From contig JAKLEZ010000001.1 of assembly GCA_022711465.1 (NCBI GenBank), positions 620,001-684,000 of the forward strand: a DNA stretch of 64,000 bases, given 5' to 3'. This stretch comes from Planctomycetota bacterium. Its GTDB lineage: Bacteria; Planctomycetota; Phycisphaerae; UBA1845; PWPN01. Below are positions 7,665 to 18,886 of this stretch, one piece after another (position 1 is the first letter of the stretch; each line of letters begins with the position of its first letter). The position numbers were made by a program, and so were the translations under genes. The notes beneath the pieces were generated by a model. It did not search any database. It was not told where the DNA came from and saw only the letters and a program-made list of their open reading frames with translations.

Positions 7665-7768
7665 TCACAACAGGCGGCAAGCCACCTTCGGCGGGCAGAG
7701 GGCGCGCGGGGGGGTGTTTGTCTGCCTGGAAATGACGACCACAGCACGAGCAAAAGGATGCGTTGCGC

Positions 7769-10700
7769 ATGGCGGGATATCGCAAGAGCCTCGGCATTGG
7801 CACAGTCACGGCGATCGGCCTCCTGCTGTCTCTGCCCCTGGTCGTCGGACAGGGTTGCCCGTCCACCACACCTGGCCGCGTCGTACCCATCGGCGGCGCC
7901 TGGTCTACTGGCGGATGGACGACTGGCGACGACACGACGGGGGGCACCTCCTCGACGTCACCGCGGCTGGTCTTCACCAACCCGCTTTCGGATGTCAGTA
8001 TTGAGATGGGCGACTCGATACTGGTTCAGTGGACTGAACAGGACCTGGCGGCCACTGCGGCCATCACTCTGCTGCTTGATCCCGATAACATCTACGGTAA
8101 CGGCAACGAGCTGGTGGTGATGCCCCTGGCCCTGGCCAGCGACCAGGGCAACGTCGGGTCGTTCCTGCTGAATACCGGCCTGTTCAATCTGCAGGCTGCG
8201 ACCTACCGGATCGTGGCCAAAGTCACGGATGGGACCAACCCGGACATGCTGGTTACCGCGACCGGGCGCATTCTGCTTTACGGCCACGGCCTGTTGCCGG
8301 GGAACATGGCCCCCACGATCAGCATGCCGGAGCCGGCCATCAACCTCGGAGCGGCTCAGGGTGACACGGTCGCGATTCAGTACTGCGGTAACGACCCCGA
8401 CGCCGACGGCAAGATGCCGTCGACCAAACCTGACATTGTCCTGATGCTCGACTACGACAACGACCCGACGAACGACATCGACGGCGTGGTCGACTACTTC
8501 CTGACCAACGGCCTGGGTGATCGCCAGACCGTGTTCACCCGCATGTGTGCCGCGGGCAGCTACCCGGCACCGCTGGAGGACATTTTCACCGAGGTCCCGA
8601 CAGCGCTCACGCTGGACAAGGTCATCATCCTGAGCTGCGGCAAGGACAACGGCTGCGGGCTGATCATTCAGGTCCCGCTGACGGACGCCCAGGGCAACCC
8701 GGTGTTGGACAATCAAGGCAACCCGATCATGGTCAACCAGCTGACCGGCCCGAGCAGTTTCACCCTGTCGATTGACGTGGGCATTATTCCTCTGCGGGAT
8801 GATGGCAGCCCGTACTACGTGCGCGGTTTGGAATGGGACCGCGTCAATCTGCCGGTCAACGCGTATGCCCCGGGCACGATCAGCGTCACCGGCATGGGCG
8901 CCGGCACCATCGACCTCGGTAAGGTCGGACGGACCGTCACCGGCACGCGGTTTCTCGGCTTCAACGCCGGTGACCAGGCCGGCTCGGGCGGTACCGATGT
9001 CGGCGACATCAACAACGACGGCGTGGACGACTTTGTCATTGTCAGCCGCTACGGTCGGGGTTACGAGATTGGCAACGTCGGAATGGCCCACCTGATCATG
9101 GGCCTGGCCGACGCCCAGAAATTCGGGAGTGAAGTCCCCCTCAACAGCATCACGACGACCTATCCGGGAGCGATGTTCTACATGCCGGCCACATCCGGCA
9201 CCACGGGGATCACCTCCGCGTGCCGAATGGGAGACGTCACTGGTGACGGCCGGCCGGACTTCATGCTGGGCGTGCCGCACGTGGAGATTTTTCCCGAGGA
9301 CCACGACGACGACCCTTGCGACTGCTGCGGGGAGAACAACATGCCTTCCTGCAACTTCGACTACCTGCCGAACCCGGAGACGAACGATCCCTCCTGTGGC
9401 GAGGTTCTGGGCGATGCCATGACCGGGTATGACTATCGCGAGTTTGGTAACTGCACCAACGATCTGGATGTGACCAGGTCGACCCCGATCGATGGCGGAT
9501 ACGCGTTTCTGATCGCCAGCGACAACAACGACACCACCCCCTACGACCTGGCAAGTTCGTCGTTTCCCAGCGTGCTCGCGCTGGACAGATGCGGGAGTGA
9601 TCGGATCGACGGCGCCGGCTGGCTCGGAGCCCGGTTCCGAGGCGCGTGGTACACGAACGAGGAAGTGGCTCTGAACATCAGTCAGACGGTCACGCCGTCA
9701 TCCATCATCCCGGACAATCAGTTCGGCGAAACGGTTCGGACGATGCCACCCATGGCGGTCAGCGGCGGCGGGCTGAGCGCCGCGGCCTCGCGATTCGGCA
9801 CGACGGTGCTGATCTCGTCGCCCAACGCCTGGGGCGGGCGAGGCAACGTGGTGGTCACGCCCAACAATGATTTCATCAACATGACGGACATCACGGAGAT
9901 TCCCAACAACAGCCAGTCCATTCCCGTCTATGACAAGGTCGGAGACTGCCCGGGGTGCGGCCGAACCTACTGGTTTCCCGCGTACACGGCGATTATCGGC
10001 AGGGCTGCGGGCGACCATCTGGGTTACGGTGCGGCGGCGGGCGACTACAACCTGGATGGCAGCCAGGACATCCTATGCGGGGCGCCCGGAGCCAGCCGCA
10101 ATGGGGTTCAGCGGGCTGGCATCGTGTACGTGATCTTCGGGCGGCCCGATTGGCCGACCATCGATCTGCAGACCCTCAACCCGCCGCGGATGGAGATCTG
10201 GGGAACGCGTCAGGATGACGGATTTGGCTCGATGCAGGCCATTGTCGGCGACATGAACCAGGACGGTTTGCCGGACATCGGGCTCAGCGCCCAGTATGCC
10301 GATGGGCCCGGCGGCACGGACTCGGGTTTCATCGGGATTGTGTTTGGCGGCCGCCGGCTCACTGGGGAGAACATTTTCAGCGTCGACCAGATCGCGACGG
10401 CCCAGCTTCCGGGCGTACGGTTCTACGGCACGCAGCCGGGCGGGCACGCCGGCTCAGTGATCAGCAATGTCGGCGACTTCAACGGCGACAACATGGATGA
10501 CCTCCTGATCTGCGCGTCGGACGAGTACCGCACGGTGGACGGCATCCGGCGGCACGGCGTGGCCTACCTGATCTTTGGCGGGCCGCACCTCCGCAATCAG
10601 AGCTTCAACCTCGACCAGGTGGGCACCGCCTCCCTGCCGGGCATCATCTTCGTCAGCCCCTACGCCGCGGATACCGCGGAAGAGGCTCCGATCGACTTCG

Positions 10701-10864
10701 TCTCTGCCGCCGGCGACATCAACAGCGACGGTTTCGACGACATCATGCTCGGCGTCAGCAAGGCCGACTACATCAACCCGCTCGAGCCCAGCCAGCGGCG
10801 CATCGACTCCGGCGAGATGTACCTGATGTACGGCAGCAACACCGGATCAAACTCGATGCAGTAA
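7769..10864 (+). CDS. Secreted FG-GAP repeat (integrin-alpha-like beta-propeller) protein
   Basis: The 1031-residue protein starts at ATG 7769 with AAAGGA ten bases upstream. An N-terminal signal segment (GTVTAIGLLLSLPLVVGQGC) ends in a cysteine, but the preceding residues are not a standard lipobox, so lipidation is uncertain. At least six calcium-binding FG-GAP loops are visible, among them GDINNDGVDDFVIVS, GDVTGDGRPDFMLGVP, GDYNLDGSQDILCGAP, GDMNQDGLPDIGLSA, GDFNGDNMDDLLICA and GDINSDGFDDIMLGVS. This indicates a seven-bladed, metal-stabilised propeller in the second half, preceded by about 400 residues of beta-rich domain. The role is probably cell-surface binding. The stop TAA overlaps the aroK ATG (TAATG), an odd coupling for such different genes. 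Confidence 0.88.
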   Translation: MAGYRKSLGIGTVTAIGLLLSLPLVVGQGCPSTTPGRVVPIGGAWSTGGWTTGDDTTGGTSSTSPRLVFTNPLSDVSIEMGDSILVQWTEQDLAATAAITLLLDPDNIYGNGNELVVMPLALASDQGNVGSFLLNTGLFNLQAATYRIVAKVTDGTNPDMLVTATGRILLYGHGLLPGNMAPTISMPEPAINLGAAQGDTVAIQYCGNDPDADGKMPSTKPDIVLMLDYDNDPTNDIDGVVDYFLTNGLGDRQTVFTRMCAAGSYPAPLEDIFTEVPTALTLDKVIILSCGKDNGCGLIIQVPLTDAQGNPVLDNQGNPIMVNQLTGPSSFTLSIDVGIIPLRDDGSPYYVRGLEWDRVNLPVNAYAPGTISVTGMGAGTIDLGKVGRTVTGTRFLGFNAGDQAGSGGTDVGDINNDGVDDFVIVSRYGRGYEIGNVGMAHLIMGLADAQKFGSEVPLNSITTTYPGAMFYMPATSGTTGITSACRMGDVTGDGRPDFMLGVPHVEIFPEDHDDDPCDCCGENNMPSCNFDYLPNPETNDPSCGEVLGDAMTGYDYREFGNCTNDLDVTRSTPIDGGYAFLIASDNNDTTPYDLASSSFPSVLALDRCGSDRIDGAGWLGARFRGAWYTNEEVALNISQTVTPSSIIPDNQFGETVRTMPPMAVSGGGLSAAASRFGTTVLISSPNAWGGRGNVVVTPNNDFINMTDITEIPNNSQSIPVYDKVGDCPGCGRTYWFPAYTAIIGRAAGDHLGYGAAAGDYNLDGSQDILCGAPGASRNGVQRAGIVYVIFGRPDWPTIDLQTLNPPRMEIWGTRQDDGFGSMQAIVGDMNQDGLPDIGLSAQYADGPGGTDSGFIGIVFGGRRLTGENIFSVDQIATAQLPGVRFYGTQPGGHAGSVISNVGDFNGDNMDDLLICASDEYRTVDGIRRHGVAYLIFGGPHLRNQSFNLDQVGTASLPGIIFVSPYAADTAEEAPIDFVSAAGDINSDGFDDIMLGVSKADYINPLEPSQRRIDSGEMYLMYGSNTGSNSMQ

Positions 10865-11394
10865 TGAACCTTGTCCTGATCGGGTATCGCGGCTGCGGGA
10901 AGACCACTATTGGGCGGCTACTCGCATCGCGGCTCGGGTGGTCTTTCGTGGACACCGATGCGCTCATCGAGGAAGGGACGGGGGCCACGATCCGGGAGCT
11001 GTTCTCCGATGGTGCGGAGCAGGCCTTTCGGGACCTGGAGAGCGAGGTGGTGGCGGAAGTGGCCCGGCGTGATCGGCAGGTCATCAGCACCGGTGGTGGT
11101 GTCGTGCTCCGGGCGTCCAACCCGGCGGCGCTCAAACGGAACGGCAAGATCGTCTGGTTCACCGCCCCGGCGGAAGTGCTCTGGCGGCGGATTCTGGGGG
11201 ACAAGGCGCGGTTGGTGAACCGCCCCCCGGCGGACCGAAGCCGCGGCCTTGAGATCGTGACCAGGGCTCTAGCCGTACGCGAGCCGCTGTATGCCCGGTG
11301 GGCGGATGTTGTGATGGACACCCGGCACCGATCGCCGGCTGAGCTTGTGGACGAGGTCCTGGCGGCCCTGCACATCCCCTTCGAGCGAGCCTGA
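10864..11394 (+). CDS. aroK: Shikimate kinase
   Basis: The 176-residue P-loop kinase phosphorylates shikimate at O3, the fifth step of chorismate synthesis. Walker A is GYRGCGKTTIG near the N-terminus. FVDTDALIEE provides the magnesium-binding DxD, FRDLESEVV the shikimate-binding FRxxE, and ISTGGGVV the substrate-binding GGG. The LID arginine lies in ARLVNRPP. The ATG shares one base with the stop of the upstream FG-GAP gene, and no separate ribosome site is obvious, so translation probably depends on termination of the upstream frame. aroA follows after 17 bases, an ordinary aro pairing. Confidence 0.95.
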   Translation: MNLVLIGYRGCGKTTIGRLLASRLGWSFVDTDALIEEGTGATIRELFSDGAEQAFRDLESEVVAEVARRDRQVISTGGGVVLRASNPAALKRNGKIVWFTAPAEVLWRRILGDKARLVNRPPADRSRGLEIVTRALAVREPLYARWADVVMDTRHRSPAELVDEVLAALHIPFERA

Positions 11395-11411: not shown

Positions 11412-12692
11412 ATGAGACTGGTTGGCACGGCATCCCGCCTCAGAGGGACGGTCGCGATTCCCGGTTCGAAGTCGCATTCGATCCGGGCGGTGTGCCTGGC
11501 GGCTCTGGCCGACGGCGCGAGCCGGATAGAAGCCGGGTTGGAGTCCGCGGACACGCTGGCGGCGATTGACGCCTACCGGGCGCTGGGCGCGACCATCGAG
11601 ACGTTGCCGGGGCGATGGCTGATCCGAGGCACGGGGGGGCGACCGACCGCGCCGGCCAATGTCATCGATGTCCGCAACTCCGGGACCACGCTGCGACTGG
11701 CCTTGGGTTCGGCCGCCCTGCTGCTGGAGCAAGCCGCGGTATTCACCGGTGACGACCAGATCCGCCGCCGGCCGATCGGACCGCTGGCCCAATCCCTGAC
11801 CGACCTGGGGGCTGACGTCCGCAGCACGCTCAACAACGGCTGCGCCCCGGTTGTGGCCCGTGGCCGCCTCTGCGGGGGTAAGACCCGCATCGAAGCGGTC
11901 ACCAGCCAGTACCTCTCCAGCCTGCTGATCAACTGCCCGCTGGCGGATGGGGACTGCGAGATCGACGTTCCGCTGCTGAACGAGCAACCCTACGTGCACA
12001 TCACCCTGGGCTGGCTGGATCGCTGCGGGATCCGTCTGGAGCGGGACGGACTGAAGTGGTTTCGCATCCCCGGCGGCCAGGGCTACCGGGCGTTTGACGC
12101 TCGCGTGCCGGCCGACTTCTCCTCGGCCACGTTTTTCCTGGCCGCCGGCGTACTGGGCGACAACGACGTGCTCGTCGAAGGGCTGGACTTCGGGGACACG
12201 CAGGGCGATAAGGCGGTGGTCGATTACCTTCGGGCGATGGGGGCCGACATCGAGATCGGGCCCCAAGGTGTCCGCGTGCGGCCGGGCCGGCTGACCGGCT
12301 GCGAGATTGACATGAACGCCACGCCTGACGCCCTGCCGATGATGGCCGTGGTCGGCTGCTTCGCCCAGGGGCGCACCTTGCTGGTCAATGTACCCCAGGC
12401 CCGGCTCAAGGAGACCGACCGGATCGCGGTCATGAGTCGCGAACTGGCCAAGCTGGGCGCCCGGATCACGGAACGGCCGGACGGCCTGGTCATCGAACAG
12501 AGTGATCTTCGCGGGGCGAGGGTGGAAGGCCATGGCGATCATCGCGTGGTCATGGCCCTGGCGGTTGCGGCCACGGCCATCGCCGGCGAGACGCGGATCA
12601 GCACGGCGGAGGCGATGGAAGTGACTTTCCCCACGTTCCTGGGGTGCATCACCGGCCTCGGGGCCGCCTTGCGCCTGGAGCCGGACGCCTGA
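11412..12692 (+). CDS. aroA: 3-phosphoshikimate 1-carboxyvinyltransferase (EPSP synthase)
   Basis: The 426-residue enzyme joins phosphoenolpyruvate to shikimate 3-phosphate. The substrate-binding start AIPGSKSHSIRAV is present with the catalytic Lys of GSKS. RNSGTT in VIDVRNSGTTLRLALG is the PEP-binding loop. TSQYLSSLL, the conserved DFSSATFFLAAG and LKETDRI (catalytic region) all appear in order. The glyphosate-relevant loop reads NSGTTLR, where class I enzymes usually have NAGTAMR, so a class II-like PEP site is likely. The length is normal. It is in the same unit as aroK and is followed 11 bases later by a histidine phosphatase. Confidence 0.95.
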   Translation: MRLVGTASRLRGTVAIPGSKSHSIRAVCLAALADGASRIEAGLESADTLAAIDAYRALGATIETLPGRWLIRGTGGRPTAPANVIDVRNSGTTLRLALGSAALLLEQAAVFTGDDQIRRRPIGPLAQSLTDLGADVRSTLNNGCAPVVARGRLCGGKTRIEAVTSQYLSSLLINCPLADGDCEIDVPLLNEQPYVHITLGWLDRCGIRLERDGLKWFRIPGGQGYRAFDARVPADFSSATFFLAAGVLGDNDVLVEGLDFGDTQGDKAVVDYLRAMGADIEIGPQGVRVRPGRLTGCEIDMNATPDALPMMAVVGCFAQGRTLLVNVPQARLKETDRIAVMSRELAKLGARITERPDGLVIEQSDLRGARVEGHGDHRVVMALAVAATAIAGETRISTAEAMEVTFPTFLGCITGLGAALRLEPDA

Positions 12693-12703: not shown

Positions 12704-13369
12704 ATGGCCATGAACCACGAGCCCATGACCGAACTGATCGTCTTGCGTCACGGAGAGACGTGGTGGAACGTCGAAGGCCGCCTTCAGGGCCACCTGGACA
12801 GCGGCCTGAGCCTGCTGGGCGTGCTTCAGGCGGAGGCCATCGCCCGGCGGCTTGGCCAGGAGCGGTTTGCCGGGCTGTACAGCAGCGATCTGGGCCGGGC
12901 CCTGCAGACAGCGGAGCCGATCGCCCGGGCCACCGGCCTGGCGATCATGACCGACTCGCGGCTGCGGGAACGCAACCTGGGGTTTTTCCAGGGGCTGACC
13001 ATGGCCGAGATCCTGGAGCGGTTTCCCGACGATCACCGCCGGTTCGTCTCCGGCGAGCCCGATCATGTGGTCCCCGGGGGCGAGAGCGGCCGGCAACGGT
13101 ACGAGCGCACCGTGACCTGTGTCAACGAGATTGCGGCCAGGCACGCCGGTGAACGGGTGTTGATCGTGACCCACGGCGGTGTCCTGAGCGGCCTGCTTCG
13201 CCGGGCGCTGGGTGTGGACCTGGCGATTCCCCTGAGCTACCGGCTGTTCAATGCCACGATCAACACGTTCTTTGTGCGGCAGGGAGCGTGGAAGCTGGGC
13301 AGCTGGGGCGACATTCACCACCTTCGCGACATCGGCACGATCGAAGCCGGCGCCGAGGCGAACGCGTGA
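12704..13369 (+). CDS. Histidine phosphatase superfamily protein (phosphoglycerate-mutase-like)
   Basis: About 221 residues from ATG 12704; ATGs at 12710 and 12725 are equally possible starts because the conserved core begins MTELIVLRHGETWWNVEGR. The catalytic RHG histidine, the second arginine in SSDLGRALQTA, the proton donor Glu in RERNLGFFQG and the second histidine in IVTHGGVL are all present. The family includes cofactor-dependent phosphoglycerate mutases, alpha-ribazole phosphatase and broad acid phosphatases; the sequence does not tell which. Its place between aroA and a chorismate-synthase-like gene suggests one transcript but gives no known role in aromatic synthesis. Confidence 0.85.
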   Translation: MAMNHEPMTELIVLRHGETWWNVEGRLQGHLDSGLSLLGVLQAEAIARRLGQERFAGLYSSDLGRALQTAEPIARATGLAIMTDSRLRERNLGFFQGLTMAEILERFPDDHRRFVSGEPDHVVPGGESGRQRYERTVTCVNEIAARHAGERVLIVTHGGVLSGLLRRALGVDLAIPLSYRLFNATINTFFVRQGAWKLGSWGDIHHLRDIGTIEAGAEANA

Positions 13370-13463
13370 CGGGCGATGCCGGAACTCTGGTGGAAGCGCG
13401 TTCGGATCGGGTATTATGGCCTTGGTATCGGGCTTGCGCATTTGAGCCGAGGGAGGCCGAATC

Positions 13464-14780
13464 ATGCTGGGTTGCGATCTGGGTACGATGTTCCGGACCA
13501 CGGTGGCGGGCGGTTCCTACCAGGAGGGTCTGACCATCCATCTACAGGGCGTGCCGCCGGGGCTTCTGGTGACGGAGGAGCAGATCTACGAGGACCTGTT
13601 GATCCGCAAACCCGGGCAAGGCGATCTCACCTCGCCGCGGCGTGAGCCGGACATTCCGATCATCTACAACGGGGTGAACGCGGCGGACACGATGCCGGGT
13701 TTCACCAACGCCGGGTACACGAACGGCACCCCGATGGTCATTCTCATTCCGAACCTGGACCGGCACTTCGAGCACATCGAGCAGTACCAGTCCACGAACC
13801 GGACACCGCGGCCGGGTCACGCCTCCTACGCCTCTTACATGAAGTACGACCAGTGGGACGATGCCATCGGGGCGGGCATTTTCAGCGGGCGGTATACCTC
13901 GACGATCGTGGCCGCGGGCGTGGTCGCCAAGCGGGTGTTGGCCGATCATGGCATTGAGGTCACCGGGTACGTGAAGGAGGCCGCCGGGGTGGTTGGGCCG
14001 GACATGCCGATCGAGGAGATCCGGGCCCGGGCGGAGGCCTACCGGCGGGTGCGCAAGGTTCACGACCCGATCTGGAATTACGTCTACAAGGCCAGCCGGA
14101 TCAAGCCGGGCATGCGTCTTCTCGAGAAGCTGGCGGTGCTCAAGGAAGTCGAGGACCTCATCGAGCGTTTTGCCCAGATCCCGATGAACGAGGATGAGGT
14201 TCGGGCGGAATATGGCGTTCATCCCCAGCTCTTCTGCCCCGACCTGGCGGCCGCCGACGAGATGTTCGACCGCATCGTGACGATCAAGAAGGCGGGCGAC
14301 TCGAGCGGCGGCGTGGTCGAGGTCCAGGCCACCGGTCTGCCGGCCGGCATGGGCGAGCCGGTGTTCAAGAAGCTGGACGGCGAACTCGGGCGGATGCTGA
14401 GCATCGGGGCGGTCAAGGCGGTTGAGATCGGGGCCGGTGTTCAGGTCAAGGACATGACCGGCTCGCAGTGCAACGATCAGCTCTTCGCCAGGGACGGGAA
14501 GGTCTACTTCGGGAGCAACAACGCCGGCGGCCTCACCGGGGGCCTGACCACAGGCCAGACCCTTGTCGTCCGGCTCACGGTCAAGCCCACGCCGACGATC
14601 AGCAGGGATCAGCACACGATCGACAAGGTGTCCAGGGAGGAGACGGTGCTGAAGGCGGTGACGCGCAGAGATCCCACCCTGGTTGCCCGGATCTGGCCGG
14701 TGGCGGAGGCCTTCACCGCCCTGGTTCTGCTCGATCACCTGATGATGCATCTTGGCTACCAGGCGTTGTGGCGGAAGTAG
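13464..14780 (+). CDS. aroC: Divergent chorismate synthase
   Basis: The 438-residue protein is clearly related to AroC (5-enolpyruvylshikimate 3-phosphate to chorismate, using reduced FMN): GVPPGLLVTEEQIYEDLLIRKPGQ, LTSPRREPD, RPGHASY with the conserved His119, SGGVVEVQATGLPAGMGEPV, and NAGGLTGGLTTGQTLVVRLTV-type closing motifs. It departs at signature sites. The N-terminal GESHG is GGSYQ (Tyr19 where the catalytic proton-donating His is expected). The GGG(R/H)xSxR flavin motif reads GAGIFSGR, nearer to the clostridial HFSGR form. The C-terminal RHDPC is RRDPT. It is longer than the usual 350-390 residues, with an extra helical segment around residues 190-260. GGGAGG lies seven bases before the ATG. 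It may be a working variant or a paralogue with another reaction. Confidence 0.8.
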   Translation: MLGCDLGTMFRTTVAGGSYQEGLTIHLQGVPPGLLVTEEQIYEDLLIRKPGQGDLTSPRREPDIPIIYNGVNAADTMPGFTNAGYTNGTPMVILIPNLDRHFEHIEQYQSTNRTPRPGHASYASYMKYDQWDDAIGAGIFSGRYTSTIVAAGVVAKRVLADHGIEVTGYVKEAAGVVGPDMPIEEIRARAEAYRRVRKVHDPIWNYVYKASRIKPGMRLLEKLAVLKEVEDLIERFAQIPMNEDEVRAEYGVHPQLFCPDLAAADEMFDRIVTIKKAGDSSGGVVEVQATGLPAGMGEPVFKKLDGELGRMLSIGAVKAVEIGAGVQVKDMTGSQCNDQLFARDGKVYFGSNNAGGLTGGLTTGQTLVVRLTVKPTPTISRDQHTIDKVSREETVLKAVTRRDPTLVARIWPVAEAFTALVLLDHLMMHLGYQALWRK

Positions 14781-14791
14781 GACCCGCGGGG

Positions 14792-15331
14792 TCATTCGAT
14801 GGTGATGCGGCCGGCGCCGGCCCCGACGCGGACGGTCTTCTGGCGTCCCCCCAGGGCGATCACCACGGTACCCGGCGAGGAAGGCCCGCCGAATCGGTCG
14901 AAGACGAGGGTATCCGGGCCGCCGAAGTCGAAGGATGCGATGGCGGCGCCTTCGTAGGGTGGCTCGCCGAGTTTGACCGTGTAGATCGCGGAGGGATGAT
15001 CCGGATGGGGCATGTCGACCAGGGTATAGGAGTTGGCCGGCACGCTGAAGGTCACGCTCTGCTGCTTGACCGTCTTGATGGCCTGAACCTGGGCCAGGCG
15101 CAAGTCGGCGGCGAGCCTCCGGGCGGCCAGGTCGACCGCCTTGCCCTGAAGGGCGTTGGCGAACCTGGGGATGGCGATGGCCGAGAGCACGGCCATGATC
15201 GCCATGACCACGACCGCCTCGATCAGCGAGAAGGCCGCTGGCCGGCAGCTCGCGCACCCACGGCACTTGGCGCGACCCACCCCAACCAGGTGTCGGCGTG
15301 ACGCTTGTATCACGGCTCCACCTCCCGCCAC
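14792..15331 (-). CDS. GspH/FimT-like pseudopilin
   Basis: The 179-residue minor pseudopilin has a long basic leader of about 33 residues, then a prepilin peptidase site A|FSLIEAVVVMAIMAVLSAIAIPRF. Ala rather than Gly at -1 is less common but tolerated in some pseudopilins. The C-terminal beta-rich part (DTLVFDRFGGPSSPGTVVIAL) resembles the GspH fold, where RFGxxS-type strands are common. It is the last gene of the minus-strand operon and overlaps the preceding gene by 22 bases. Its 3' end faces aroC with a gap of only 11 bases; a small hairpin (GACCC/GGGTC at 14781-14793) covers that junction. Confidence 0.8.
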   Translation of the reverse strand: MAGGGAVIQASRRHLVGVGRAKCRGCASCRPAAFSLIEAVVVMAIMAVLSAIAIPRFANALQGKAVDLAARRLAADLRLAQVQAIKTVKQQSVTFSVPANSYTLVDMPHPDHPSAIYTVKLGEPPYEGAAIASFDFGGPDTLVFDRFGGPSSPGTVVIALGGRQKTVRVGAGAGRITIE

Positions 15332-16563
15332 GAGCCCGGAACGATCTTCATGTTCGTGTCAACAAAGCCGGGGATCATGGCCTGGGCGAGCTGGGGGTCG
15401 TCGTTGCAGACAACCCCGTCGTACACCTGAAGGCCGCTTCCGATGATGCACCCCGTGATCGGGGTACCTGAGCCTTTCATCGAGATGTACGATGAGTCCG
15501 TCCAGACCAGCCCCTTGATGTAGGTACTCAGAGTGTCAAGCTTGTCGCCATCTTCGCTGTAGTCCACCCAGTCATCCCACTCCACCAGCGACGACTCCTC
15601 GAGCTGGAACACGACATTGCTCTGTGTGGAGAAGATCAGAATCGACGGATACGAATAGCCTGCCGGCTCGATGCGGAGCGGGCTCTGGAAGGTCACGGTC
15701 TGTGCTGTGTTGTAGAGGATCAACGTGCCCTTGATGCGGCTATTCTGCACCACCACCGGCCGGTTCGTGCAGTTGAGGGCATAGATGCCGTTGGCGTTGA
15801 TCTGCGACGAGGATTCGGAATTGCGGGTGGGTGTCAGAACATGCTCTCTCAGCCTGGCGGTCGTCCCGGCGATGCCGGCAACGGGTGTCGCCAGCGAGAG
15901 GTAGTAAGACAAGCTCGGCTGCGGGTAGCTCATCGCCGTCGCGGCGTACCTGGAGGGAGTCAGCTCGGAGGCAATGTAGGCGTTCCGGACAGATTCGAAG
16001 TAGGCGTTGTCCTCGGCGTCCGCATTGCCGTCGCTCCAGATGGCCCCGTTGGATCGCACGGGGCCCCGGGCAACGGCATCACTGGCCAGACCGAACGAAT
16101 TGTAGCCGAAGGCGGCAAAGGCCAACGCTGGATGCGGCCGCGGCGTCAAGGTCGCTTTGACCTTGTGCACGGCGTCGCCGACCGTGCCGGTGCTGGTCAC
16201 GATTAGACAATCGCGTTCATCGTCCGACAAGCTGCCGTCCGTGTCCACGGCCGTGATCGTGTACTCGCCCGGCCCAAATGTCTGGTTCGGAAACCACGTG
16301 CCGTTGGGCATGGTCTGCCGCCATGAGGGGTTGGCATACATGTAGTTGAACGCCTTTTCGACACCCGCCAGCGCGACGTGCTGGGCCTGGAGCGATTTCT
16401 GCAGGCTGCCGTGGATTCGGTGGTTCGCGCGAGCCACGGACAGGAGGGTGAAGCCGGTCATGGCCAGGATGGTGGCGATGCCGAGCACGAGGATGCACAC
16501 GGCCACGCCCCGACGGCGAGCGGCTCGGGAATGACCGCGACGGTCACCGCGTCTCCGCGTCAT
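15310..16563 (-). CDS. PilX-like membrane-anchored protein of the pilus/secretion operon
   Basis: The 417-residue protein starts with many arginines and a single hydrophobic helix (GVAVCILVLGIATILAMTGF), the arrangement of PilX N-terminal-type proteins that lack the standard prepilin motif. The large C-terminal region is beta-rich, with serine/threonine-rich segments. Stretches such as GPVRSNGAIWSDGNAD and IKGLVWTDSSYISMKGSGTPITGCIIGSGLQV resemble the beta-helix-like domains of large pilus-assembly proteins. It overlaps both neighbours (22 bases downstream, 20 upstream), so it is translated as part of the pseudopilin block. GspK-like tip function is possible, but the sequence does not prove it. 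Confidence 0.65.
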   Translation of the reverse strand: MTRRRGDRRGHSRAARRRGVAVCILVLGIATILAMTGFTLLSVARANHRIHGSLQKSLQAQHVALAGVEKAFNYMYANPSWRQTMPNGTWFPNQTFGPGEYTITAVDTDGSLSDDERDCLIVTSTGTVGDAVHKVKATLTPRPHPALAFAAFGYNSFGLASDAVARGPVRSNGAIWSDGNADAEDNAYFESVRNAYIASELTPSRYAATAMSYPQPSLSYYLSLATPVAGIAGTTARLREHVLTPTRNSESSSQINANGIYALNCTNRPVVVQNSRIKGTLILYNTAQTVTFQSPLRIEPAGYSYPSILIFSTQSNVVFQLEESSLVEWDDWVDYSEDGDKLDTLSTYIKGLVWTDSSYISMKGSGTPITGCIIGSGLQVYDGVVCNDDPQLAQAMIPGFVDTNMKIVPGSWREVEP

Positions 16564-17020
16564 GTCGCGCCCTCAACAAGAGGAGTTCCGCCCGAACCTG
16601 ACCGTCCTTGGCGACGGTCACGGTGATCTTCTTCAGATCCGTCGAGCCGTCGTACTCCACGACGGCGTTCTGGCTGAACTTCGGGTACTCGTCCATGGGT
16701 GTACCATCGCGCTGCTGGGGCGGAGTAGCCGTCCAGCCGTTGTAGTCGTCGACGTCGTCGAAGTCCTGGCGGGTGCCGTCGGTCTCGTCGGCCTCCGGAC
16801 CGAAGACGATGGTCGCGCCGGGGTCCTCGAACGCCTGGGAGCGGATCTCCGCGGCCAACTGGGCAGCCAGCTCGGTAGCGATCGTGGTCTCACGATCGAA
16901 GAGAGCGCCTCTGGCAAAAGCTCCGAAGGTGTGCAGGGCCATCGCGACGGCGGAGCCCAAGATTACTACGCTGATCACGGCCTCGATGTATCCGAACCCG
17001 CGTCGTTGTCGAGCCTGCAT
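16544..17020 (-). CDS. PilV/GspI-like pseudopilin
   Basis: The 158-residue protein has a short leader QARQRRG, then FGYIEAVISVVILGSAVAMAL, a type III signal with Tyr-Ile replacing the usual Thr-Leu before Glu5. The downstream part includes a helix of about 35 residues (TIATELAAQLAAEIRSQAFED) and a small beta domain with acidic loops. This pattern is that of PilV/GspI minor pseudopilins. The start of the next gene overlaps its end by 20 bases. It is a likely priming subunit of the pseudopilus with its neighbours. Confidence 0.75.
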   Translation of the reverse strand: MQARQRRGFGYIEAVISVVILGSAVAMALHTFGAFARGALFDRETTIATELAAQLAAEIRSQAFEDPGATIVFGPEADETDGTRQDFDDVDDYNGWTATPPQQRDGTPMDEYPKFSQNAVVEYDGSTDLKKITVTVAKDGQVRAELLLLRARHDAETR

Positions 17021-17030
17021 CCTGATGCTC

Positions 17031-18128
17031 CTACAAGCCGGTGATCTCCGGGCGGTTGAGACAGGCCGTGCCGGAGGTCATTTCCGCGGTACTCGAGCCC
17101 TGGGTAAGCTTCAGCCCAAAGGTCAAGCCGGTCAGGTACTTGCGGGTAATGGTCTGACCTTCCTGAGGCGCGGAGTACTTCAGTTGGCCGTACAGGATGT
17201 ACCGGCAATCGCGATCGTTGTCGGCTGACCAGGTGAGGCCGCTGGTGGTGGAGTACTTGTAGTAGTCGCTGCCCGCAGGATTGGCGGTGTACTCGTCGCG
17301 ACCGAAATTGGCCCCGGTCGAGCTGGTGCTGGTACGGGCGATGAGGGAGTAGGTCGTGTCGGGGTTCATCTCGGTGAGGCTGGAGAACGTGAACTCGTAC
17401 CAGAGATACTCGGTCGAGGACAATGAGCTCAGGGAGAGAGTCTCCTCTTCGTAAGTGGTATTCGTCGAGGCGCTGCGGATGGACAGATAGAGCGTACCGG
17501 AGAGACCCGTGCCTTTCAGGTACACTTTGGCCCTGGTGATGCTGTACGACTCGAGGTCGTCTGCCGACACGCTGAACCCTTCGCCTCGCCACGAGGAAGA
17601 GGAGATGGGGCTGGCCCCGAATGTTCCGGACGAACCTGGCGGTATAGCCTCGTGCGATGCGAGCACGACCTCACCGGTCAGGTCGCTGGTTTCGCCGGGC
17701 ACAGTCACCGTGGAACACGTTGAAGCCAGCGAGAACTCGCTCACGTTTTCGACGATGGGCACGGCCGTACCGCCGGAGACCTGTCGGGTGATCGAGCCGC
17801 CGGCGACGCCCGGCCAGTCATAGATGATGAGGTCGTCGGCCCCGTCGCCGTCGACATCGGGATGGGTGAATTCGATGTGGGTCGGGGTGAGACTCGTGAC
17901 GGTGATCGCGGCCCCGAGTTCGCGGCGGATTCGGGCCATGGCGATGGAGGCGTCCGTGTTCAGTTGGGAGGATGCCTGGATGCCCGCGGCCCCGCGGGTC
18001 ATCAGGTGCAGGGCCCCGCCGACGGCGAGCATGACGATGACGGTCAGGCTGGAGGCGACGCTCAACTCGACAAGGCTGAATGCGTAGCGCCGCGATTGCA
18101 TGGGCTGACTGGGTTTCGTCCTGGCCAT
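17031..18128 (-). CDS. PilW/GspJ-like pseudopilin
   Basis: The 365-residue protein carries a prepilin site RRYA|FSLVELSVASSLTVIVMLAVGG after a leader of about 16 residues, with Ala at -1 and Glu5 present. It is larger than usual GspJ (about 200 residues). The extra central region is rich in Ser and Thr and predicted beta strands (for example SYSITRAKVYLKGTGLSGTLY-like jelly-roll sequence), suggesting an inserted carbohydrate-binding-like or CBM-type beta domain; that is an inference. An internal stretch, HPDVDGDGADDLIIYDW, includes a DxDxDGxDD loop able to bind calcium. It sits between the GspG-like and GspI-like genes, matching the order of pseudopilins in secretion operons. Confidence 0.72.
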   Translation of the reverse strand: MARTKPSQPMQSRRYAFSLVELSVASSLTVIVMLAVGGALHLMTRGAAGIQASSQLNTDASIAMARIRRELGAAITVTSLTPTHIEFTHPDVDGDGADDLIIYDWPGVAGGSITRQVSGGTAVPIVENVSEFSLASTCSTVTVPGETSDLTGEVVLASHEAIPPGSSGTFGASPISSSSWRGEGFSVSADDLESYSITRAKVYLKGTGLSGTLYLSIRSASTNTTYEEETLSLSSLSSTEYLWYEFTFSSLTEMNPDTTYSLIARTSTSSTGANFGRDEYTANPAGSDYYKYSTTSGLTWSADNDRDCRYILYGQLKYSAPQEGQTITRKYLTGLTFGLKLTQGSSTAEMTSGTACLNRPEITGL

Positions 18129-18223
18129 GGGCGGTCACCCGAACGAAGGCGGCAGCCACACGTCATCGTGCCGCTGCCGCCGGGAAACGCAACGCTCAAA
18201 GGAACGGGCCGGATTGCCCTGAC

Positions 18224-18757
18224 CTAGTACTGGTTGTACTGCTTGTCGGATTCGTCCTTCTCGCTATCGGCACAGTTGGCGATGATCTCCCCGGTCTTGA
18301 AGCAGTAGACCCAACCGGTTGTCCCGCTCGCCGCCGGGGTGGACGAAGTGACGGTCACCTCGTTGCTGCCGCGGTTGGTACCTGCGGGCAGGGTGGGGAT
18401 CTGTTTGCGGATATAAGGCCCGTACACGTGAGTGGTGTCCTTGGTTTCGGCCACAGCGCCGTTGGCATCGGAGTACATGAGCAACTGGTTCTTGAAGGCG
18501 TCGGCGGTTTCCGCGGCGCCGAAGCTGCCACCTGCGGCGTTAGCCCCGGGGAAGATCCCATTGTGCTCCGAGGCGTAGAGCTCGATGGCATTGCGCAGCA
18601 CCGCGAGGTCGGAACGCAGGGCGGAGTCGCCGGCGCCACGCGCTCCGCGGCTCACTCGCGGGATGGCGATTGCGGCGATGACGCCGATAATCACGATGAC
18701 GATGACCAGCTCGACAAGACTGAAACCCGTTCGGCTCTTGCTCTTGTTCGCGTACAC
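18224..18757 (-). CDS. gspG: Major pseudopilin, GspG-like
   Basis: The 177-residue product starts at GTG 18757, preceded by GGATGGAG with about seven bases spacing; an in-frame ATG at 18793 would make an unusually long leader. The signal is RTG|FSLVELVIVIVIIGVIAAIAIPRVSRGARG, closest to major pseudopilins of type II systems, and the helix continues into SALRSDLAVLRNAIELYASEHNG as in GspG. The C-terminal region (YGPYIRKQIPTLP and WVYCFKTGEIIANC) is the typical GspG ending with a cysteine pair that may form a disulphide. It is probably the most abundant fibre subunit and may need its own promoter in the 93-base or longer gap upstream. Confidence 0.85.
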   Translation of the reverse strand: MYANKSKSRTGFSLVELVIVIVIIGVIAAIAIPRVSRGARGAGDSALRSDLAVLRNAIELYASEHNGIFPGANAAGGSFGAAETADAFKNQLLMYSDANGAVAETKDTTHVYGPYIRKQIPTLPAGTNRGSNEVTVTSSTPAASGTTGWVYCFKTGEIIANCADSEKDESDKQYNQY

Positions 18758-18886
18758 GGTGGTACTCCATCCTTTGCCGGCAATGCGACTCACAACTTGA
18801 CCCCTCTACCGGGGACATTCGTGCTATCGGTTGCCACACTGGGAGGCTTGAAAACAACGTCGTCGGAAAAACGACGGGCGATTCCG

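Follow-up and report, generated by a model that had tools for sequence, protein, structure and literature searches.

Chorismate synthase completes the shikimate pathway toward the aromatic amino acids. Its reaction, a non-redox elimination that depends on flavin, is unusual, and the enzyme is a target for drugs and herbicides. Both active-site histidines of the enzyme have been described as invariant, and the protonation step is debated. The stretch of DNA analyzed here (64,000 nucleotides of a Planctomycetota genome, from now on the window) encodes an AroC homologue with a tyrosine at the site of the N-terminal histidine. Is this protein a genuine chorismate synthase, and can the reaction proceed without this histidine?

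The gene, its product and its neighbors

The following genes and signals were assigned in this part of the window:

10864..11394, plus strand: aroK, shikimate kinase (PF01202, 147.7 bits)
11412..12692, plus strand: aroA, EPSP synthase (TIGR01356, 384.9 bits; the sole aroA match in the genome)
12704..13369, plus strand: gene of the histidine phosphatase superfamily (branch 1) in the interval between aroA and the variant (PF00300, 193.5 bits)
13450..13456, plus strand: ribosome-binding-site-like AGGGAGG, 7 nt 5' of the ATG of the variant (from the sequence)
13464..14780, plus strand: Tyr-type chorismate synthase homologue (open reading frame, PF01264 and TIGR00033 above their cut-offs, AF2 model)

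The open reading frame of the Tyr-type (GGSYQ) homologue starts with ATG and encodes 438 amino acids. The protein scored 305.6 bits against TIGR00033 (cut-off 212.2) and 306.9 bits against Chorismate_synt PF01264 of Pfam, the whole profile being covered (cut-off 27 bits); its NF003793 score of 313.3 was slightly below the cut-off of 321. The AF2 model (pLDDT 89.8, pTM 0.92) matched 28 PDB entries with E<=0.001, all of which are chorismate synthases, the best with a TM-score of about 0.7 (query) or 0.8 (target).

The location within an aroK-aroA cluster, as described in an earlier note on this DNA, was confirmed, with a histidine-phosphatase-family gene separating aroA from the variant. This gene adjoins the variant in only one of 80 related loci (the best 80 of 312, see below), and an obligatory partnership was therefore rejected. 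Upstream of aroK lies a gene for a 1033-amino-acid FG-GAP repeat protein (7763-10864), the last base of which is the first base of aroK. A row of pseudopilin-like genes (14792-18793, minus strand; N-methylation motif, GspH-like) is convergent with the variant.

According to the earlier note, the cell probably has no chorismate synthase other than the variant. A search of the genome disproved this by revealing a second, canonical aroC at G000:C1:831779-832843 with the motifs GESHG, RPGHADL and SARET. Both genes are located on contig C1, 198 kb apart, which makes contamination an unlikely source of the two copies. Omega values were 0.115 for the variant and 0.128 for the canonical copy in a comparison with a congener, and 0.110 and 0.124, respectively, with a more distant relative. 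These similarly low values indicate that both copies are maintained. In the window genome the variant is probably the copy of the aroA operon, partly redundant with the canonical AroC elsewhere.

Active-site residues

The motifs GGSYQ (residues 16-20), RPGH (116-119) and GAGIFSGR (136-143), and in the C-terminal part SSGGVVE (280-286), GGLTGG (355-360) and RRDPT (401-405), were read in the open reading frame exactly as noted before, RPGH, SGGVVE and GGLTGG being kept and the other three altered. The residues and regions discussed below are encoded as follows:

13518..13520, plus strand: codon TAC of Tyr19, the site of N. crassa His17 and E. coli His19 (alignment)
13773..13775, plus strand: His104, within the three-residue insertion xH[IV]xxY (His in 94/94 and 4/4 proteins of the two Tyr clades and in 0/66 His-type proteins)
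13818..13820, plus strand: His119 of RPGH, the kept flavin-N1 histidine, equivalent to N. crassa His106 and S. pneumoniae His110 (alignment; role from PMC3509576)
13869..13892, plus strand: GAGIFSGR, variant of the flavin loop (sequence)
14001..14234, plus strand: extra, mostly helical region, residues 180-257 (AF2 helices 183-200, 202-209, 219-235 and 243-250)
14664..14678, plus strand: RRDPT (RHDPC in His-type proteins) with Asp403, the kept catalytic base, equivalent to N. crassa Asp367 (Asp in 94/94)

When 94 Tyr-type and 66 His-type AroC proteins, the E. coli enzyme included, were aligned, the column of Tyr19 coincided with that of E. coli His19 and contained tyrosine in 94/94 Tyr-type and histidine in 66/66 His-type proteins. 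The substitution at the N-terminal histidine site was thereby confirmed. Since Tyr19 falls exactly on E. coli His19, no realignment can supply a histidine there, and a misalignment hiding one was rejected; His104 belongs to an insertion and occupies another column. The tyrosine is fixed in all 94 relatives of the alignment and in the four proteins of a second clade, which excludes chance and sequencing error.

In the literature the leaving phosphate is assigned to His17 of GESH (PMC2386126, PMC7144000, PMC3509576), protonation of flavin N1 to His106/His110 of RPGH (PMC3509576, PMC7144000) and the function of the base to Asp367 of the N. crassa enzyme (PMC3509576, PMC2386126). The N-terminal histidine of GESHG (His17) has been described as common to all known species (PMC2386126). 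The loss of an "FMN-protonating" histidine, as the earlier note had put it, therefore has to be corrected: the variant has lost the histidine with the phosphate assignment, and the flavin histidine is kept as His119. Ser18, Arg48, His119, Arg143 and Asp403 are invariant in the Tyr-type proteins (His119 and Asp403 in 94/94). Absent are the histidine of GESHG, the SxRET flavin loop (SGRYT in the variant) and R[HS]D-x-C (RRDPT).

Both Tyr clades have Tyr19, Ser57, His104, Ala137, Thr400, Arg402 and Thr405 as fixed residues, which His-type proteins lack or show only rarely; Arg402 and Thr405 border the catalytic Asp403. Judged from the alignment, this co-fixed set looks like a coordinated remodelling of the site. 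The extra region 180-257 brings the variant to its length, compared to about 350-390 amino acids, and its conserved columns R197, D201, R218, K222 and E230 are gaps in His-type proteins.

Occurrence of the Tyr form and its role

Two clade-specific peptides, scanned against 84,980 species genomes, yielded 312 loci encoding relatives of the variant. The proteins of the best 80 of these 312 show 63-85% identity across their full length, all with intact open reading frames and with Tyr19 fixed. Their hosts belong to Planctomycetota, Armatimonadota/Hebobacteria, Verrucomicrobiota, Hydrogenedentota, Spirochaetota, Bacteroidota, Lentisphaerota and others. Within the GTDB family of the window genome the GGSYQ form was found in 11 of 13 genomes searched, and it was absent from the other searched genomes of the order. 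Among Planctomycetota its distribution is patchy (15 of 392 genomes). High sequence identity across phyla together with this patchiness suggests that the Tyr-type gene has spread horizontally. In a quick mixture-model tree without bootstrap, the GGSYQ clade (support 100) was grouped with four GESYG proteins from four Planctomycetota genomes (L014, L044, L205 and L206; SH-aLRT 91). This grouping indicates, with moderate support, that the tyrosine probably arose once. In one of the four genomes (G016) the GESYG form is the sole AroC-family gene, and aroA and prephenate dehydratase are present.

Carriers in which the Tyr form is the lone AroC homologue give strong indirect indications that it serves as the chorismate source in vivo. 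No other AroC type was detected in 29 of 50 carrier genomes (two of these with two Tyr-type copies), the carriers named in the scan being all metagenome-assembled or uncultured, and the assemblies may lack some of the canonical genes. The remaining 21, like the window genome, contain a canonical AroC in addition. Among the 29 Tyr-only genomes, chorismate-using enzymes of PF00425 were found in 28, prephenate dehydratase in 25, and at least one of both in all 29. Sampling across the phylum gave nine carriers of full-length genes that had the Tyr form only, and six of them are 91-99% complete. Completeness among these nine was, for example, 99% (G267), 99% (G498), 96% (G394) and 94% (G496, apparently the same genome as G089 of the 50-carrier set). 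One carrier, G062, showed no aroA above 1e-50, yet its variant has an aroA match as a neighbor; possible assembly frameshifts make it weak evidence. G065 (L063 and L080) and G096 (L111 and L113) each contain two copies of the Tyr type and lack a canonical AroC.

Genus g57, the genomes of which are 99% complete and 1% contaminated, comprises both types: G267 has the Tyr form only, and G319 and G371 have the His form only. In G267 the Tyr-type gene and a secretin-like gene converge, and at the same locus G371 contains an aroK-aroC fusion. The secretin-like flanks of both genomes are syntenic with 73-76% nucleotide identity, and the opposite flanks differ. G267 also encodes aroA, a PF00425 protein and prephenate dehydratase. 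The fusion of G371 (539 amino acids, L194:8810-10429, minus strand) was read directly, and further fusions in some Planctomycetota were deduced from open frames of about 544 amino acids in G319, G397, G120, G208 and G421.

The gene context of the relatives points in the same direction. Among the best 80 of the 312 loci, the gene immediately upstream, in the same orientation, is aroA in 37, and shikimate kinase lies directly downstream in 9. A chorismate mutase gene (CM_1) lies downstream of the Tyr-type gene in L069. In six Spirochaetota loci (L090, L097, L098, L099, L118 and L126) the gene directly downstream is ribF, which serves FMN/FAD synthesis.

Consequently, the variant is very probably a genuine chorismate synthase which converts EPSP to chorismate with reduced FMN and belongs to a Tyr-type clade with a remodelled phosphate-side acid. 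This assignment is based on the sole AroC homologue of 29 chorismate-using genomes, the same-locus replacement in g57, the context of aroA, aroK, chorismate mutase and ribF, the fold, the kept catalytic residues and purifying selection. The earlier note had left a choice between another proton donor and a new role with the true aroC elsewhere. The former agrees with carriers that have the Tyr form as lone AroC homologue beside intact chorismate-using pathways. The latter leaves the Tyr-only, chorismate-using genomes unexplained.

A bifunctional or condition-specific chorismate synthase, adapted to a different redox state or supply of flavin, for instance by a flavin reductase in the helical region, would account for the stable coexistence of both forms in family f1, Bacteroidales and some Hydrogenedentota, for the equal purifying selection on both copies in f1, for the conserved region 180-257 and for the adjacency of ribF in Spirochaetota. 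However, many genomes use the Tyr form alone, and profile searches including Pfam revealed no flavin-reductase signature in the variant, which counts against an internal flavin reductase. We regard such a specialization as rather unlikely, and it is compatible with the assignment as a genuine chorismate synthase. A neofunctionalized paralogue, which accepts EPSP or a similar enolpyruvyl compound and forms another product while the canonical AroC is the real enzyme, would fit the carriers with both genes and the change of a residue described as invariant with several co-fixed neighbors. It is improbable in view of the 29 carriers which still use chorismate without another AroC homologue, the replacement at the same locus in g57 and the neighbors aroA, aroK, aroH and ribF. 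Finally, a decaying, inactive duplicate, as the lost histidine and the canonical copy of the window genome might suggest, was rejected with near certainty because of intact frames in 80/80 loci and 63-85% identity across phyla (both for the best 80 of 312), an omega of 0.11 and the occurrence as sole copy in many genomes.

Proposed reaction and comparison with known enzymes

For a genuine chorismate synthase of the Tyr type, the canonical radical mechanism would apply with EPSP bound over FMN. His119 would protonate flavin N1, the C3-O bond of EPSP would be cleaved, and Asp403 together with FMN N5 would take the C6-proR hydrogen. The leaving phosphate would be protonated or neutralized by another group, and we propose Tyr19 itself and/or His104, the latter with arginines, as candidates. 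Since many bacteria from several phyla have the Tyr version only, the phosphate-side histidine is apparently dispensable. It is likely that the Tyr-type proteins form a mechanistically distinct class of chorismate synthases in many phyla, in which the exchange of His for Tyr is accompanied by the co-fixed xHIxxY and TRRDxT and which displaces the classical enzyme. In genomes with an additional canonical AroC, the Tyr-type gene could be redundant or specialized.

In NCBI models these proteins already bear the name chorismate synthase. The absence of the histidine, the formation of a clade and its acting alone appear to be undescribed, and a prior description is possible: no account of a His-less or second chorismate synthase was found in the open literature, subscription papers lying outside the search. 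A widespread natural clade separates the required chemistry (flavin histidine and aspartate base) from an apparently dispensable phosphate-side histidine, and the debated protonation step can readily be compared between the two types. The clade also calls for caution in annotation or inhibitor design resting on the GESHG signature. If the assignment is true, the acid side of a flavin-radical reaction has been rebuilt in the course of natural evolution.

A close comparison is provided by the GESYG homologues, with about 42% identity to the window protein. Like the window clade they have Tyr19, Ser57, His104, Ala137, Thr400, Arg402 and Thr405; unlike it they retain Glu17, Gly20 and the SGRET loop and have no large insertion. 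With His-type AroC (TIGR00033/PF01264/EC 4.2.3.5) the variant shares the profile match, the fold, the gene neighborhood, Ser18, His119 (flavin), Asp403 (base), Arg48, Arg116, Arg143 and Arg401 as well as the motifs SGG and GG-x-x-GG. It differs by tyrosine in place of the His17 equivalent, the exchange of Glu17 for Gly, of RPGHAD for RPGHAS, of SxRET for SxRYT and of RHDPC for RRDPT, the inserted xHIxxY, the extra region of about 75 amino acids and an identity of 30-39% to canonical forms. The N. crassa and S. pneumoniae enzymes (PDB 1QXO) agree with the window clade in the residues that protonate the flavin and deprotonate N5, and they possess the phosphate-side histidine which the window clade lacks.
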